DNA from: Clostridia bacterium
GTDB taxonomy: Bacteria > Bacillota > Clostridia > Oscillospirales > Acutalibacteraceae
Length of the DNA stretch: 35,886 bases
Direction of reading: 5' to 3'
NCBI GenBank assembly: GCA_017430145.1
Contig: JAFRNP010000024.1
Coordinates: 1 to 35,886 of the forward strand
Shown here piece by piece: positions 1 through 8,600 of the stretch (position 1 is its first letter; every line of letters begins with the position of its first letter). The notes beneath the pieces are model-generated. The model saw nothing but the letters and a program-made list of their open reading frames with translations, made no database searches and was not told the DNA's origin. A program made the translations under genes and the position numbers.

Positions 1-2566
1 CATGGGACAGCGCGTCGATACCGGTATAGGCGGTGCTTTTTTGCGGCACGCTTTTCGTAAGCAAGGGATCCAGCGCCAGGGCGTCCGGCAAAAACCGGTC
101 GCTGGTAAACGGGCGCTTTTTGTTTTTGTCCAGCTCCGTCGCCACGGCAAACAGCGTCGCTTCGCTCCCGGTACCGGCGGTGGAAGGCGCCAGCGCCAGC
201 GGGACCGCGTTTTCACAGACGCTGTCGGGTTTGCAGATATCTTCTATAAACCGGTCCGGGTTCGCAGCCCTGAGCGCCGTGATCTTCGCCACGTCCAGCA
301 CGCTGCCGCCGCCGACGCCGATCACGCCGTCGCAGCCGTTTTCCGTATACGCTTTCAGCGCCGCGTCGGTATCCGAAACCGTGGGCTCGGCGGCGATCGC
401 GGAAAACACCGGCATACCGGAGAACGCGTCGTTCAAAGCCCCGATCCCCGGCAGCTCAAACGGCACGGTGACCAGAAGCGGTTTTTGTACGCCGAGGCCC
501 TTGACCGCCTGCGGCAACTGAGCGACGACGCCTTCGCCGGTCAGAAGGACGGGCGTTTTGAGATGCGTATCTTTCAGCACGCCGAGCGTCAGCTTGCCGA
601 TGGGCGACAAGCCTTCGGTCCGTTCGGGCACGCCCTTCAAAACGAAGGCGGGATCGATCCGGCAGTGGCCGCCCGCTTCCAGATAAGCGGCGTCGACAGG
701 ATGCCAGCAAAAGCCCGCGTCGGCGAGCGCGTTCACGGTCTTTTCACAGCGCATCTCCACCTGTGCGGAGCGGCCGGAGATCAGCATATAGAACATATAG
801 ACCCGCATGTCGCCGTCCGCGATGTTCGCCTGGGTCAGCTCGATCGCTTCGGCCGTGGAGGTCTCGCGGCAGGGCCTGCCGAGAAGGGCGAAAAGGTCCG
901 GCACTTTCAGAAAATACGGGTTGTACAGGTGCCTTACACGGTCTACCTGCCCCGTTAAGGCAAGGCGCACGTAAGCCGCGGCGCAGTCGTCCACGGGGGT
1001 CAGGTCCATAGGGTATTTTTCCATGTTCTCATGGTACAGCCCCAGCTTCAGGATGGCGTGCAGGCGCCGCAAAAAGCCGTTGTCGGCGGCGTTCTCCTGG
1101 AATAGGCCGTCACTTCTGCGCCAGGTCAGGTTGCCGATGCGGTAGATATTGGCTTTCAGCCCCTGTTTTCTCGCCATGAGCACCGCCGTCTCCGCCTCAA
1201 ATTTGGAACGGATATAGACGTTTTCACCCACGTGCTGCCCGATATCAAGGATATCCTCGTCAAAAACCGCGTGCTCGGTGGTTTCGATCACCGTGGCGGC
1301 GCCGTGCAGGCTGACGGTGGAGGTATGCTGCAGCACCGCGTTTGCGGCAAGACAGAAGGCGATCACGTTTTTCGTGCCTTCCACGTTCGTGCGCCGCAAG
1401 GTTTCGTAAGCGCCGGCGTGGCGCACGTTTGCCGCGGTGTGGAACACGCTGTCAACGCTTTTGCACAGTTCGCCGTACGTTTCTTCGTCAAGCCCCAGAT
1501 CCCGCTTTTCGATGTCGCCGGCAACGACCAACAGATGCGGGTCGTTTTTGAGCGCGGGGCCGAAATAGTCGTCCAGCCTTGCAAACAGGCGCTCCCGGCT
1601 TCTGACAAGCGCGTAAACGGTGCAGCCGCTCTTTATAAGTTCACACAGAATGTGCGCGCCCAAAAAGCCCGTCGCGCCGGTCAGCAGGACGGTTTCGGGC
1701 GACGGGGCGAAGGCGTCGTCCGCCGTTTCACGCAAAAGGGCGTTGAGATCGCCGCCAATGATCTCTGTACCCGCCCGGCCGGCTCCCGCATCCGTTTCGG
1801 CGGCAGAAATAAGAGAAGCCAGCGCTTGCAGCGTGGGGTTCGCGTAAATATCCTGCACCTGCAGACCCAGCTGTACGGCAAGCTGGGCTGCGTACAGGCT
1901 GTTGCCGCCGAGGGCGAAAAAGCTGTCCGTCATGCTGTAAGGCTTTTCGCCCAGCAGCTCCCTGATGGCCGAGACCACTTTTTTGTCCGCGTCGGTGGCG
2001 GGCGGGACGGTCTCGCGGGGGCCGCTGCCCTGCCGGTCGGAGCGGATGATCTTGCGGCTGGCGGTGCGGGCAAAGGGCGTATTGCGCAGCACGAAAGCCG
2101 TGATCTGCTGGTGAAGCGCCAGAGAGGCGTTTACCTGCCCGAGGACCCTTTTCATTTCGGCTTCGGGGTCCGCCGCCGACTGGTCGACGAAGGCTTCCAC
2201 GGTCACGCCGCCGTCTGCGCCGTAGCAGATGCACTCTTTGACAAACGGGAAGCGTTCAAATTTTTCTTCCAGAAACTCCGCGGACACGTTTTCGCCGTTA
2301 TCGAGCAATATCAGGTTTTTGCAGCGGCCGGTGATGGACAAAAAGCCGTCCTCGTCCAGCGTGCCGAGATCCCCGGTCTTCAGCCACCCGTCGGCGGTAA
2401 ACGCCTCTTTCGTGGCTTCTTCGTTTTTATAATAGCCCTTCATGACGTTGAGGCCTTTTAACAGGATCTCGCCGTTTTCGATCTTCACCTGCATGCACGG
2501 GATCGGTTTGCCCACCGTGCCGCTTTTATTGAACGCGCCCACGTTGTTGGCGACGACGGGGGCGCA
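1..2566 (-). CDS. C-terminal part of an A-PCP-TR-FeADH carboxylic acid reductase fusion, partial at window edge, cut from its N-terminus by an amber codon
   Basis: I translated the minus-strand frame that continues past the TAG at 2569-2567 and found it open, with no further stop or frameshift, for all 855 codons to the window edge. In order it encodes the rest of an adenylation domain (TGDLG, GRCKNLIL, and the A10-type lysine in TASRKIIR), a carrier protein with the phosphopantetheine site LGGNSL (Ser near residue 559 of the whole chain, codon 1900-1898), a thioester-reductase domain (TGATGFLG near 632, HTAANVRHAG, and the YIRSK catalytic Tyr/Lys near 787/791), then an iron-dependent alcohol dehydrogenase (GVGGGS near 1086-1091, TAGTGSE near 1132, TGIDALSH at the edge). 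Known chemistry of these families is ATP-dependent acid activation, thioester loading, NAD(P)H reduction to aldehyde, and aldehyde to alcohol. The joint product is inferred. If translated separately, the first ATG is at 2494-2492 without an obvious ribosome site. The true C-terminus lies outside the window. Confidence 0.85.
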
Positions 2567-3574
2567 CTACGTCATACCGTAGCCGTTGTAGACCCCGATA
2601 CCGGTGGCGTTCCAGCGGTCGTTGAGGTCCTTGTCCAGCGGCGCGCTGCCGCAGCTGATCAACAGGAACGCCCCGCCGAAGAAAGCGCGGACCGCCTCGG
2701 GCTCGGTCATTTCGTCCTTTTTCTCTTCGGCAAAGCGCAGAGCGGCGCTCATTAAAAACTTGACGATCTGGGGCACCGCCAGCATACCGTTGGGCTTATA
2801 GAGACGGAAATCCGCGATCAGGTTTTTCAGGTCGTCGTTCAGGCACAGCGTACGGCCGTAGACCACGGTTTTCGTGATGTTGCCGGTAAGCCCGAAGGCA
2901 TGGTGGAACGGCAGGCAGCCCATCATGCGCTGGGTGGGATAGGAATCGTGCACGTAGGTAGCGGCGGACAAAAAGTTTTCGTGCGTCAGCATCACGCCCT
3001 TCGGAAAGCCCGTGGTGCCGGAGGTATACATGATGGCGCAAAGCGCGTCGGGCGCGGGCGCAGGGAAAGAGACGGCGGGCGTGTTCTGAACGGTATGCGT
3101 AAAATCCAGAGCGTCCGCGGGAGTCTCCCCGTCCGAAATGCAGACGAAAACCTTCACCTGCGGCAAATGGGCGCGGATCTTTTTGTAAAGGGAGAGATGT
3201 GCGCTGTCGAACACAAAGACGGTCACGTCCGCAAACTCCACAAGTTTTACGTTCATGTCGTCCGTCTCTGCCGGGGCAAGGGGAACGGCGACGCCGCCGC
3301 AGTTGACGACGCCGAAAAACGCCGCCGCCCAGTTGTAGCAGGCGGGGCCCACCATTGCGACGTGCGCCTCTTTTCCCGCGGCGGAAAGCAGAAAAGAAGA
3401 GAACGCGTCGGCGTCCGCCTTTAACTGCCGGTAGGTTTTTGCCGCGACGCCCTCAGGCGTTTTATATTCCATAAAATGTACGTCGCCGAAAACCTGCGCC
3501 GCCGTATCGGTGAGCGCCTTAAAAGTCTTCAGCTTCGTCATATCCGGTTTCGTTTTCAAAAAATCCCGCCTCAC
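2567..3574 (-). CDS. N-terminal AMP-binding (adenylation) fragment of the same fusion, ending at an in-frame TAG
   Basis: This is the first 335 residues of an acyl/aryl-activating adenylation domain. Visible motifs are the A3 phosphate loop (MYTSGTTGFPKG, about residues 183-194) and the start of motif A5, NGYGMT, which normally continues with Glu. That Glu codon is TAG here (2569-2567). The next codons read CAPVVAN, as expected of the intact family, so a single GAG to TAG change explains the break. The fragment alone lacks the catalytic Glu, the C-terminal subdomain lysine and all downstream domains, and should be inactive. GTG at 3574 is the longest start. A TTG at 3559 sits 5-6 nt after AGGCGGG and is at least as likely, and ATG at 3541 is a third option with a poor ribosome site. 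It is divergent from the aminotransferase operon across a 356-bp gap. Confidence 0.85.
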   Translation of the reverse strand: MRRDFLKTKPDMTKLKTFKALTDTAAQVFGDVHFMEYKTPEGVAAKTYRQLKADADAFSSFLLSAAGKEAHVAMVGPACYNWAAAFFGVVNCGGVAVPLAPAETDDMNVKLVEFADVTVFVFDSAHLSLYKKIRAHLPQVKVFVCISDGETPADALDFTHTVQNTPAVSFPAPAPDALCAIMYTSGTTGFPKGVMLTHENFLSAATYVHDSYPTQRMMGCLPFHHAFGLTGNITKTVVYGRTLCLNDDLKNLIADFRLYKPNGMLAVPQIVKFLMSAALRFAEEKKDEMTEPEAVRAFFGGAFLLISCGSAPLDKDLNDRWNATGIGVYNGYGMT

Positions 3575-3930: not shown

Positions 3931-5409
3931 ATGGACACCAGATTTTCAATTTCAGAGTACCCGGATGCTGCCGCCGTCAACCGGCAGCTGGACGAGCTGA
4001 TCAAAAAGCCGATCTACACGATCACGGACGAGGCGCTCGCAAAATACGAAGCGGATTATTTTGAAGCGAAATGCCAGAAATCCAAAGCGATGATCGAAGA
4101 TGCAAAATCTATCATTCCGGGCGGCGTACAGCACAACCTTGCGTTCAACTATCCCTTCCCGCTGGTCTTTACGAAGGCAGACGGCTGCAAGCTGTACGAT
4201 ATCGACGGCAACGAGTACTATGACTTTTTGCAGGCAGGCGGCCCCACGGTGCTCGGCTCCAACCCGCCCGAGATCCGCGAGCAGGTCATCGATCTGCTGA
4301 ACACCTGCGGCCCGTCCACCGGCCTGTTCCACGAATTTGAGTATAAGCTTGCCAAAAAGATCTCCGACAGCATCGAGACCGTGGATATGTTCCGCATGCT
4401 GCAGTCCGGTACCGAGGCCTGTATGCTTGCCTGCCGCATCGCGCGGCTCGCCACCAAAAACCGCAACATCGTCAAGATGGGCGGCGCCTACCACGGCTGG
4501 TCCGACCAGCTGGGCTACGGCATCCGGATCCCCGGCACCAAGTTCACGCAGGCGCACGGCGTGCCCGCCCGCCTTATGCGCGACACGCAGGAGTTTTTCC
4601 CGGGCGACCTTGATTCCCTTGAGCGCGTTCTGCGCCTGAATATGTTCCGCGGCGGCACGGCTGCCGTGTTCCTGGAGGCTATCGGCCCCGAAAGCGGTTC
4701 CCGTCCCGTGGACAGAAACTTCTGCAAGGGCGTGGAGCGTCTCTGCCGCAAATACGGCGCGCTGCTCGTATTCGATGAGGTCGTGACCGGCTTCCGTATC
4801 GGCATGTCCGGCGCGCAGGGTTATTTCGGCTGCTCCCCGGACATTACGGTCTTCGGCAAGGTCATCGCGGGCGGCTATCCGGGCGCGGGCGGCGTCGGCG
4901 GCAAGCGCGAATACATGAAGTATCTCGGCGCAGGCCTCGACGGCGGCGTGAAGGTCAAAAAGGCGTTCTGCGGCGGCACCCTGTCCGCGAACCCCTTAAG
5001 CTGCGCGGCCGGTTACTTTACGCTGGAAGCGATCGACAAGACCAACGCCTGCGTCAAGGCCGGCGAGATGGGCGACCGTATCACCAAGGGGCTGCAGGAG
5101 ATCATCGCCCGCCGCCACCTGCCTTTCGTCGCCTTCAACCAGGGCTCCATCTGCCACCTGGAGACCGTGGGCACGCTGCAGTTCTCCATCAACTGGACGA
5201 AACCGTGGACGATCCCGTCGGTGCTCAGCGAAACGAACCGCAGAAAGACCGAAATGACCCACATGGGCGCCGCGTATATGGCGGAAGGCGTCGTGACCCT
5301 TGCAGGCAGCCGCCTGTACACCAGCGCCGCCTACGACGAAGCAACGATCGACGACGCGCTGTCCCGCTTTGACAGAGTATTTGCAAACATTGCAGTAAAG
5401 GAAGACTGA
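3931..5409 (+). CDS. Class III PLP-dependent aminotransferase, glutamate-1-semialdehyde aminomutase-like
   Basis: A 492-residue fold-type I PLP enzyme. Visible: the cofactor phosphate-binding SGTEA (159-163), YHGW (187-190), FDEVVTGFR (281-289, Asp282 to bind the pyridine nitrogen) and the Schiff-base lysine in VFGKVIAGG (Lys310). The closest well-known relative is HemL, but the protein is longer (HemL is about 430) with a roughly 60-residue N-terminal extension, and no haem genes are nearby, so another amino donor/acceptor pair is likely. The open frame could begin at 3820, but ATG at 3931 has an excellent ribosome site (AAAAGGGAGGA) while the upstream stretch is AT-rich promoter DNA. The next gene starts 3 nt after its stop, so the two are probably translationally coupled and work on one pathway. 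The substrate is unknown. Confidence 0.9.
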   Translation: MDTRFSISEYPDAAAVNRQLDELIKKPIYTITDEALAKYEADYFEAKCQKSKAMIEDAKSIIPGGVQHNLAFNYPFPLVFTKADGCKLYDIDGNEYYDFLQAGGPTVLGSNPPEIREQVIDLLNTCGPSTGLFHEFEYKLAKKISDSIETVDMFRMLQSGTEACMLACRIARLATKNRNIVKMGGAYHGWSDQLGYGIRIPGTKFTQAHGVPARLMRDTQEFFPGDLDSLERVLRLNMFRGGTAAVFLEAIGPESGSRPVDRNFCKGVERLCRKYGALLVFDEVVTGFRIGMSGAQGYFGCSPDITVFGKVIAGGYPGAGGVGGKREYMKYLGAGLDGGVKVKKAFCGGTLSANPLSCAAGYFTLEAIDKTNACVKAGEMGDRITKGLQEIIARRHLPFVAFNQGSICHLETVGTLQFSINWTKPWTIPSVLSETNRRKTEMTHMGAAYMAEGVVTLAGSRLYTSAAYDEATIDDALSRFDRVFANIAVKED

Positions 5410-5412
5410 TCC

Positions 5413-6627
5413 ATGGAACTGACACTTGCGAAACAGGCCGTCGTTGAAGCCGGGATCGCCCTTGTGAAAGAGGGGCTGATCCAGCGCACGTGGGGAAACG
5501 TGAGCTGCCGCGTGGATGAAGAGCGTTTCGTGATCACGCCCAGCGGACGGGATTACCTCTCCCTGACGCCCGACGACGTGGTACTGGTCAATATCGGCGA
5601 TCTCAGTTATGAGGGGGATATCAAGCCCTCCTCCGAAAAAGGGATCCACGCAAACTGCTACCGGCTCAGACCCGACGTCAATTTTGTGATCCACACCCAC
5701 CAGACCTACGCCTCCATCCAGGGGATGTCGGGCTTTGATCTGAACCGGGTGCCCTCCCCCTACGACGAGCTGCTCGGCGATAACGTGCCGCTGGCCGCCT
5801 ACGGGCTGCCGGGGACGAAGAAACTGAAAAAAGGCGTTGCCGACGCGCTGCTGCGCTCCGATTCCAACGCCGTACTGATGTTCCGGCACGGCGCCGTGTG
5901 CCTCGGCAAAGACAAAGAGAACGCTTTTGCCGTGGCGCGGGCGCTGGAAGGCGCCTGCGAGCTGGCGGTCAAAGAGCGCATGCGGGAGGTTTCCGGAAAA
6001 CCTGCCGCCGCGTTCAAAGAGATCGCCGACTACGTGGCGCAGAAGCTGACCCAAAGCACCAGCATCCGCGATTACGCGCCGTTTGATTCCGTGCGCGTGT
6101 TCGGCGCGGCGGAGATGACCCCCGCCGGCGGCGGTGAGACGGTATGCATCGACCTTTCCACCGGGATGCCGCTGGATTTTGAGGCCGATATGCCCGAGAC
6201 CGCGTTTCTGCACGCCGAGATCTATAACCGCAGACAGGACGTGCAGGCGATCTGCCATTCAAAAGAGGAGGCGACGCTCGCCGCATCCCGCACGGGGCTG
6301 ACGGTAAGGCCGTTCCTTGACGACTTCGCACAGATCGTGGGGCTTACGCTGCCGAACGCCGATTACAATCCCTCCAACGCAAAGCGCACCGCAAAGCAGG
6401 TGGTAAAAAAGCTGCGCCGCCGCGACGCGGTGATGCTTGACCACAACGGCGCGATCTGCATCGGCAGCGACAAAGAAGAAGCCGAGGCAGTCAAGCTGGT
6501 CGCGGAAAAAGGCTGCAAAGCGTTTTTGACGGCGGACCTCTACGGCAAAGCGGACGACCCGATCTGCGTGCTTGAATGCGCGCTGATGCGTACCGTTTAT
6601 AAACTGAAATACTCCAAAAAGAAATAA
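5413..6627 (+). CDS. Two-domain class II aldolase/adducin family protein
   Basis: 404 residues made of two tandem aldolase-II (fuculose-phosphate aldolase-like) domains; single-domain members are about 200-220 residues. The N-terminal domain (about 1-215) keeps GNVS (28-31), TPSGRD, the putative catalytic Glu75 in PSSEKG, and metal ligands His94 and His96 (IHTH) and His159 (FRHG). The C-terminal domain (about 225-395) aligns by eye but has CHSK instead of HTH (His96 equivalent is Lys284), Asn345 instead of the third His, and Thr263 instead of Glu75, so it probably cannot hold zinc. Family members cleave or form sugar-phosphate C-C bonds, or epimerise or decarboxylate. The start is 3 nt after the aminotransferase stop, within an operon. 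Which aldol substrate it uses cannot be told; one functional site and one structural or regulatory domain is my inference. Confidence 0.88.
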   Translation: MELTLAKQAVVEAGIALVKEGLIQRTWGNVSCRVDEERFVITPSGRDYLSLTPDDVVLVNIGDLSYEGDIKPSSEKGIHANCYRLRPDVNFVIHTHQTYASIQGMSGFDLNRVPSPYDELLGDNVPLAAYGLPGTKKLKKGVADALLRSDSNAVLMFRHGAVCLGKDKENAFAVARALEGACELAVKERMREVSGKPAAAFKEIADYVAQKLTQSTSIRDYAPFDSVRVFGAAEMTPAGGGETVCIDLSTGMPLDFEADMPETAFLHAEIYNRRQDVQAICHSKEEATLAASRTGLTVRPFLDDFAQIVGLTLPNADYNPSNAKRTAKQVVKKLRRRDAVMLDHNGAICIGSDKEEAEAVKLVAEKGCKAFLTADLYGKADDPICVLECALMRTVYKLKYSKKK

Positions 6628-6645
6628 CGAAAGGGGAAGAACCGG

Positions 6646-7269
6646 ATGCCGGTCGCAAAAAAATCCGATCACAAGAACGCCTCCAGATCGCGTTTTTATA
6701 TCAAACGCGCTTTCGGGGAACTGCTCAACGAAAAAGATCTCGGCAAAATCACCGTTACGGATATCGTTGAACGCGCAAACATCTCCCGCGGCACATTTTA
6801 TGCGCACTACCTTGACATCTTTGACCTGTACAACGCTATCCAGAGCAACGTGATCGAAAAGATCGATACCGACATCGAAGAGATCGGCCTTGAACAGCTC
6901 ATCGCCGACCCGACCGATGCCATCGCAAAAGGCATGCTGTTTCTGGATGCGAACAAATCATACTACGGCCTGTTCGTCAATTCCGCCCATGCGGAAAAGC
7001 TGCTCAGCCGGATCCTGAACTATTTCGAAGAAAAATTTGAGCCCTCCGTTTACGAGCTGTTCGGCAACGAAGACGTTGAAAAGGTCCGCGCCTTCCTGTT
7101 TTATACCCTCGGCGCGTTCCAGAGCGTTCTTGTGCACTGGTTCCGGGACCAGCTCCCCTTTACGGCGCAGCAGGCCGCGCACTACTTAACGGAGTTTTAC
7201 TTAAACTCCCGCCCGCCGGAGATCCTCAAACTGGCGCAGTCGCTGCAACAGCAAAAAGAACAGCAGTAA
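6646..7269 (+). CDS. TetR/AcrR family transcriptional regulator
   Basis: 207 residues. An N-terminal TetR-type helix-turn-helix lies at about residues 14-60 (ITVTDIVERANISRGTFYAHY is the characteristic recognition region), followed by an all-helical ligand domain with the YYGLF segment seen in one common TetR C-terminal subfamily. The start has the ribosome site AAGGGGAAG 6 nt upstream. It is the last gene of the aminotransferase-aldolase operon, 18 nt after the aldolase, so it most likely controls that operon and possibly the divergent reductase gene by binding in the shared 3575-3930 gap. The ligand is unknown. A strong terminator follows 15 nt downstream. Confidence 0.9.
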   Translation: MPVAKKSDHKNASRSRFYIKRAFGELLNEKDLGKITVTDIVERANISRGTFYAHYLDIFDLYNAIQSNVIEKIDTDIEEIGLEQLIADPTDAIAKGMLFLDANKSYYGLFVNSAHAEKLLSRILNYFEEKFEPSVYELFGNEDVEKVRAFLFYTLGAFQSVLVHWFRDQLPFTAQQAAHYLTEFYLNSRPPEILKLAQSLQQQKEQQ

Positions 7270-8099: not shown

Positions 8100-8600
8100 C
8101 TACAGGGCTTTTTCCGCCACCAGCAGCGTATGGCTCCCCTGTTTTGCCTCTTTGACGACGGCAAACCCGTTCTTTGCCCAAAAATGTGAGGATTGGGGGT
8201 TTCCTTTGTCGATGGCAAGCCGCACGAATGAAAACCCCGCGTCTTTCAGATACAGGCAGACCTCCCGGACGATCCCGGAGCCGATCTGACGGCCCTGACA
8301 GGCCTTTGCCATCATAAAGAACCCGATATACGCGTGTTCCCTGTCCGGATACCCGTCGATCAGGTCCATCACGGCGAAAAGCGCGCCGCCGTCGTAAAAC
8401 CCCACGTAATACTTGTCGTTTTCATTGATCCCGGGCGGCGTCAGGTGAAGATCCCGCAGGATCTGCTTAAACGTCGGCCCTTGTTCCCGGTACCGGTAAT
8501 ACTGCGGATTCCCACGGCACAGTTCATACACTTCATTCGCGTCCTGCTCTCGGACAGGCCGGACGTCGTACCGGGAACTGAGTTTTGCAATATCGATCAC
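8100..8600 (-). CDS. GNAT family N-acetyltransferase
   Basis: 166 residues with a GNAT fold pattern: the acetyl-CoA pyrophosphate loop region GRQIGSGIV (about 108-116) and a C-terminal motif with SSHFWAKNGFAVVKE, typical of the final strand-helix-strand. Acyl acceptor unknown. The start is GTG at 8600 with AGAAGG 7 nt upstream. It is the only complete gene in this window that ends in TAG (8102-8100), of 27 whose stops I read, the others being 13 TAA and 13 TGA; this matters for judging the TAG inside the reductase gene. Probably in an operon with the following membrane methyltransferase. Confidence 0.85.
   Translation of the reverse strand: MIDIAKLSSRYDVRPVREQDANEVYELCRGNPQYYRYREQGPTFKQILRDLHLTPPGINENDKYYVGFYDGGALFAVMDLIDGYPDREHAYIGFFMMAKACQGRQIGSGIVREVCLYLKDAGFSFVRLAIDKGNPQSSHFWAKNGFAVVKEAKQGSHTLLVAEKAL

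Follow-up and report, generated by a model that had tools for sequence, protein, structure and literature searches.

The stretch analysed here, referred to as the window, has a length of 35,886 nucleotides and represents the entire contig JAFRNP010000024.1 (C172) of a metagenome-assembled genome (MAG) of a Clostridia bacterium from the family Acutalibacteraceae (GCA_017430145.1, denoted G000; 3.03 Mb, 180 contigs, estimated completeness 86.6%). One of its edges carries a gene that combines an adenylation (A) domain, a carrier (PCP) domain, a thioester reductase (TR) domain and an iron-containing alcohol dehydrogenase (Fe-ADH) domain in a single reading frame, which is interrupted by a stop codon and truncated by the end of the contig. 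With the parts before and after the stop designated P0002 and P0001, respectively, its features are as follows:

2..3559, minus strand: A-PCP-TR-FeADH gene, interrupted and truncated at the edge; probable start codon TTG at 3559; runs off the contig
2570..3499, minus strand: N-terminal part of the A domain (AMP-binding), with the P-loop TSGTTGFPKG; Pfam PF00501, 8.5e-53, residues 21-330 of P0002
2567..2569, minus strand: in-frame TAG stop within adenylation motif A5, flanked by open frame on either side; 13 relatives (alignment A1) are open at this position
2036..2566, minus strand: remainder of the A domain, ending approximately at the A10 lysine motif; alignment with the 13 relatives and matches to AMP-ligase profiles
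1808..1981, minus strand: PCP domain with the phosphopantetheine serine (GGNS); Pfam PF00550, 5.5e-5 (a modest match), residues 194-251 of P0001
680..1693, minus strand: TR domain with TGATGFLG and YIRSK (Tyr-x3-Lys); PF07993 (NAD_binding_4), 2.9e-43; TIGR01746, 1e-52, below its curated cut-off
2..547, minus strand: N-terminal part of the Fe-ADH domain with GGGS, TAGTGSE and GIDALSH, including the first Asp and His ligands; cut at the contig edge; Pfam PF00465, 1.3e-34

The initial annotation had proposed the same domain order, and all of the motifs it quoted are indeed found on the minus strand, with Pfam assigning AMP-binding to the part before the stop and PP-binding, NAD_binding_4 and Fe-ADH to the part after it. 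A comparison by eye with the relative L014 suggests that translation probably starts at TTG 3559 rather than at GTG 3574. The TAG codon, which lies in a motif that we take to be the one known as A5, is the sole stop among 1,192 codons (between model positions 3 and 1185). Recoding of TAG was considered and found to be without support: the codon serves as an ordinary stop in three of the 25 other open reading frames of at least 150 amino acids (aa) that end in a stop, a set picked mechanically from the window and including some doubtful members, and one of these three (8103-8600) has a Pfam match, so that nothing points to a reassigned codon.

The C-terminus missing from the window, whose recovery had been recommended in the initial annotation, probably lies elsewhere in the same genome. 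When the C-terminal part of a relative was used to search this genome, the best match (E 2.6e-54) fell on the first bases of another contig:

G000:C141:3-578: probable remainder of the Fe-ADH domain of the window gene

Its frame opens with HAVES, in step with the last letters, GIDALSH, of the window, and the two contig ends have six bases in common. Moreover, the piece carries GYIHAVAHRFGEFYHIPHG with the remaining histidine ligands, and the metal site is thus split in this genome, with the first two ligands in C172 and the last ones in C141. From the frame, the homology and the position at both contig ends, we infer that a single gene is divided between C172 and C141.

To survey relatives, the part after the stop was compared with 59 genomes (E 1e-50 for matches within the genus), and matches were obtained in 17 of them, including the genome of origin. 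The catalytic type is present in 15 of the 26 genomes of the genus, comprising the interrupted copy itself, 12 genomes with uninterrupted frames from the A domain to the ADH (1374-1418 aa), one in which the contig starts inside the A domain (G023; open frame of 1247 aa) and one in which it ends near the end of the TR domain, leaving the ADH out of view (G010). Outside the genus, uninterrupted fusion frames were found in four genomes of the family, one of 1396 aa (G028) and three of 1383-1533 aa (G104, G209 and G221), while a further genome (G108) carries the fusion in two contig pieces, each spanning the TR-ADH join. In one of these cases (L129; G209:C178), the frame continues for about 120 aa beyond the ADH domain, forming an extra C-terminal stretch. 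An uninterrupted fusion is also present in the named MAG RUG11941 (L044), which is at least one instance among the 80 named loci kept from a scan that may omit records close to the genome of the window. Uninterrupted frames thus span 1,374-1,533 aa overall, in 12 other genomes of the genus, four other genomes of the family and one named MAG, and the join recurs across independently assembled genomes from four genera (g1, g4, g67 and g80) and RUG11941, as well as in contig pieces from a fifth genus (g84). The claim that all four domains reside on one chain therefore holds for the relatives, uncultured gut-type Clostridia in which the fusion is recurrent, but not for the window copy as it stands, which is interrupted by the TAG and cut by the contig end.

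A Pfam scan of four relatives of full length, L012, L018, L022 and L044, gives the domain order AMP-binding, NAD_binding_4, Fe-ADH and ADH_Fe_C. PP-binding is detected between the first two of them in L018, L022 and L044, and Pfam misses the carrier in L012. A condensation domain, one of the features by which we assessed membership among the nonribosomal peptide synthetases (NRPSs), was found in none of the four, in agreement with the initial annotation, which had noted its absence and taken it to fit a free acid as the substrate.

The residues expected to be required for catalysis are widely conserved. In alignment A1, comprising the window gene and the 13 relatives, the carrier serine and the Tyr and Lys of the TR domain are invariant in all 14 rows, and the P-loop, the A5 motif and the A10 lysine motif are present in 13/13 relatives. 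The ADH parts belong to the Fe-ADH family, as indicated by matches to Pfam PF00465/PF25137 above the cut-offs together with an Asp/His/His/His site, whose residues we take, from established knowledge of this family, to be the metal ligands. These four ligands are kept in 19/19 fused ADHs and in both ADHs encoded by adjacent genes (see below), so that the loss of metal-binding histidines, named by the initial annotation as a finding that would refute its proposal, is not seen; GGGS has a different final letter in the ADH rows of L022 and L128.

Comparisons with known families place the fusion apart from the characterized carboxylic acid reductases (CARs). Against the CAR profile NF041592, which has a cut-off of 1300 bits, L012 and P0001 reached only 159.6 and 114.3 bits, respectively, and L012 exceeded no NCBIfam cut-off among the best 25 of its 107 matches. 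Among solved structures, those closest to the L012 A domain belong to luciferases, malonyl-CoA synthetase, FadD and 4-coumarate-CoA ligases, and the best profile matches, too, are acyl-CoA ligases and their relatives. By sequence, the A domain thus resembles acyl- or aryl-CoA ligases more than amino-acid adenylation domains. For P0001, the nearest solved relative is 6vtj, an NRPS fragment spanning the PCP and TR domains.

Taken together, these results suggest that the family represents single-chain, four-domain, ATP-driven carboxylate-to-alcohol reductases, a reading to which we assign a probability of roughly 0.7. The A domain would use ATP to activate a free carboxylic acid as an acyl-adenylate and pass the acyl group to the phosphopantetheine arm of the PCP domain. 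The TR domain would then reduce the thioester with NAD(P)H and release an aldehyde, which the C-terminal Fe-ADH would convert to a primary alcohol at the expense of a second NAD(P)H, and the fusion would stop the reactive aldehyde from escaping. We infer every reaction step, the direction, the cofactors, the channelling and the substrate from the domain content. Since the best matches of the A domain are acyl-CoA ligases and a condensation domain is lacking in the four relatives scanned, the substrate is likely a free, probably non-peptidyl acid.

Several observations weigh against this reading. Nine of the 26 genomes of the genus are without a match at E 1e-50, and the fusion is rare in the family, where a sample of 300 genomes contained seven carriers (G000, G013, G028, G104, G209, G221 and G108) and three further genomes that match over the A domain only. 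Samples of 394, 391 and 398 genomes from the order, the class and the phylum, with scoring limited to two candidates in each genome, returned only the fusion of the genome of origin (E 1e-170, 1e-150 and 1e-170, respectively); in addition, two genomes of the order sample have A-PCP-TR proteins without a fused ADH, and two of the class sample match in the A domain only. The genes neighbouring the fusion are not conserved across the clade and, for this reason, provide no pathway context for the substrate. Among seven unfused A-PCP-TR genes, four (L047, L048, L050 and L226) show no Fe-ADH match in the flanks examined, and where such a match adjoins (L045 and L046), the A-PCP-TR parts group with unfused rather than fused relatives. 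Finally, the window row deviates at 15/273 otherwise invariant columns, the most of all 14 rows (the next being L018, with 12/270), and these departures, together with the stop, fit relaxed constraint.

This last point leads to the alternative that survives best, which concerns the window copy: it could be in decay, at a locus whose protein product is on its way to being lost or to becoming non-catalytic, a possibility to which we give somewhat less than an even chance. Besides the in-frame TAG and the altered columns, it draws on the long end branch of the window gene in the A-PCP-TR tree (0.96), in which the gene lies at the base of its clade next to a weakly supported fork (83/40); this basal position by itself raises the number of changed columns. 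It also draws on two diverged relatives, carried by two further genomes of the genus, without the catalytic motifs:

G009:C181:11169-14723: diverged fusion relative (L025), open frame of 1,185 aa
G002:C103, L179:3964-7440: diverged fusion relative, open frame of 1,159 aa

Both lie at the locus of the window gene, divergent from an aminotransferase gene whose product is 88% (G009) and 92% (G002) identical to that of the window, and align with the fusion at 23-26% identity. The P-loop of the A domain, the entire stretch from A5 to A10 and the Tyr and Lys of the TR domain are gone in both, the carrier serine appears to be lost as well, and of the four ADH ligands, the G009 form keeps none and the G002 form one. 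Their base composition would lead to about 30 stops per frame, and none is observed, which fits a non-catalytic protein kept by selection. The two genomes are incomplete (78% for G009 and 85% for G002), so an intact copy may exist elsewhere in either of them. In 18 stretches upstream of the aminotransferase gene, no further diverged copies were detected at E 1e-3 among open reading frames with a minimum length of 100 aa; a contig end shortens eight of these stretches to 56-2,500 bases.

Against decay stands the otherwise good state of the window copy, which shows a single stop in the whole frame, has kept the carrier serine, the TR Tyr and Lys and all ADH residues within reach, and displays a similar codon-position G+C content on both sides of the stop (third positions, 0.77). 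Moreover, the catalytic type occupies the same locus in G008, G010 and G011, and decay therefore does not follow from the location alone. The same picture would result from a single wrong base in a MAG, and the copy has either been broken recently or carries such an error.

Two other alternatives concern the activity of the family as a whole, and we regard each of them as improbable. TR domains commonly release the products of NRPSs, and the protein could accordingly serve as an off-loading enzyme onto which a partner NRPS or acyl-carrier protein transfers an acyl or peptidyl chain, with the A domain being vestigial. DNA resembling the A-domain region does recur in the genome of origin, with four such stretches on contig C1. 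A vestigial domain is nevertheless at odds with the presence of the P-loop, A5 and A10 lysine motifs in all 13 relatives of alignment A1, and neither a condensation domain in the four relatives scanned nor a partner gene conserved alongside the fusion across the clade was found. Equally unlikely in our view is a division of labour in which the TR domain carries out the whole four-electron reduction by itself, leaving the Fe-ADH a different role, for example oxidizing an alcohol or clearing stray aldehydes. Some TR domains do reduce thioesters to alcohols, and Fe-ADHs are reversible, but the retention of the ADH metal site in every fused row and the fact that the closest unfused ADHs are products of genes right beside A-PCP-TR genes (with a third case, L227, outside the tree) speak against this division. 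Misassembly of the TR-ADH join, which the initial annotation had raised together with the prospect that the ADH is always a separate gene and which a MAG contig ending inside a gene with a stop in its frame might suggest, can be rejected with near certainty, because the same join is uninterrupted in the independent assemblies described above and the fused ADHs form one clade.

The phylogeny of the ADH domains provides hints as to the origin of the fusion. In a tree of 45 rows, one branch (100/100) sets the 19 fused ADHs apart, and another (95/89) separates them, together with the two adjacent-gene ADHs (L045 and L046) as the group nearest to them, from 24 stand-alone Fe-ADHs, although the tree gave long-branch warnings and is unrooted. 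The stand-alone set consists of L076 and 23 of 27 sequences found (the other four being without a locus), with 23 of its members coming from eight fusion-carrying genomes. The window half, the C141 piece and the ADH of L227 are not part of the tree, and row L021 enters it with only its C-terminal 405 residues; loci that occurred repeatedly (L126, L127, L152, L154, L158, L159, L161, L164 and L165) and short loci of the genome of origin were dropped. In the A-PCP-TR tree, which does not include L226 and L227, the diverged G009 row (L025) is labelled as fused. L045, L046 and L227, the last of which comes from G967 in a different family of the order, each have a separate Fe-ADH gene immediately upstream of an A-PCP-TR gene, and this pair, present in three genomes, looks like the unfused counterpart of the fusion rather than evidence that would refute it. 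At L076:1501-4995, an Fe-ADH match adjoins an AMP-ligase match, with no thioester reductase match.

It is tempting to speculate that one-chain, ATP-driven carboxylate-to-alcohol reductases with a metal-dependent terminal ADH arose once in a family of Clostridia from an ADH/A-PCP-TR gene pair, that at one locus they later gave rise to a non-catalytic four-domain protein kept open by selection, and that the window copy may lie on this path. We put this scenario forward tentatively, as one that has the odds against it.

The closest precedent for the fusion is ATRR, the NRPS-like glycine betaine reductase of fungi and nematodes, which yields choline by two successive reductions on one chain with the layout A-T-R1-R2 and whose R2 domain, a YdfG-like short-chain dehydrogenase/reductase (SDR), takes the aldehyde to the alcohol (PMC11050029). 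The same text, citing earlier work, describes atrr genes as exclusive to eukaryotes. Both systems unite adenylation, carrier, thioester reductase and a second reductase on one polypeptide, but the last domain is an SDR in eukaryotic ATRR and an Fe-ADH in the bacterial fusion, so that the latter has the same layout with an unrelated last enzyme. The statement of the initial annotation that known CARs stop at the reductase overlooks this system.

With the bacterial CARs (NF041592; PDB 5msc/5msp), the fusion shares the A-PCP-TR order, the carrier serine and the TR Tyr-x3-Lys (in the window, across the stop), as well as the expected activation of a free acid. It differs from them in that the protein does not end at the reductase but has an extra C-terminal Fe-ADH in the same frame, in its score far below the CAR cut-off and in its A domain, which is closer to acyl-CoA ligases and luciferases than to CAR chains. 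The two-gene loci L045, L046 and L227 contain the same parts side by side, but as separate genes and with the ADH first. AdhE likewise joins an aldehyde-forming half to an Fe-ADH half, and its profile NF010378 matches the ADH part of the fusion. However, the first half of AdhE is an acyl-CoA-dependent aldehyde dehydrogenase, which lacks the ATP-driven acid activation predicted for the fusion as well as a carrier domain. No description of a CAR/Fe-ADH fusion was found in searches of open-licence papers, among which the single one containing both 'thioester reductase' and 'iron-containing alcohol dehydrogenase' concerns another subject, judging by its title and the beginning of its abstract. If our reading is correct, these Clostridia would convert free acids to alcohols on a single chain, independently of CoA, which would be relevant to biocatalysis and to what becomes of acids in the gut, and the fusion would be a bacterial counterpart of ATRR, a convergent answer to the problem of aldehyde escape. 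Related genomes with the unfused pair would then offer a natural test of what the fusion contributes.

On its other side, the window gene is flanked by divergently oriented genes:

3931-7266, divergent from the fusion gene: a class-III aminotransferase (similar to glutamate-1-semialdehyde aminomutase), a 404-aa protein with two class-II aldolase stretches and a TetR-type regulator

All three adjoin the gene in the window, G008 and G011, while the aminotransferase and the aldolase do so in G002 and G009 and the aminotransferase alone in G010. The aminotransferase occurs in 26/26 genomes of the genus, with 76-92% identity in the 25 others, and is absent from the fetched stretches of 12 other fused loci (L031-L037, L039-L042 and L044), in a comparison that does not extend to G023, G104, G108, G209 and G221. 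As a core gene of the genus that is missing from these other loci, it says little about the substrate.

As for possible spread by plasmids or phages, a tblastn search with P0001 yielded 11 plasmid records (E 1e-30) and four phage records (E 1e-20), none of which covers 80% of the query. In G006, integrase, FtsK-like and Rep-like genes adjoin the fusion gene (L040:6726-10328), and matching gene families are found in G015 (L041:6685-10248), which suggests that an integrated mobile element lies beside the fusion gene in these two genomes. Stand-alone genes for AMP-dependent ligase-like proteins occur near the fusion gene at L035:4874-8522, L039, L044:7332-9083 and L124:815-2503, and also near the C141 fragment; they were identified with Pfam for L035:4874-6607 and L044 and otherwise by similarity or, for L124, by reading the translation.

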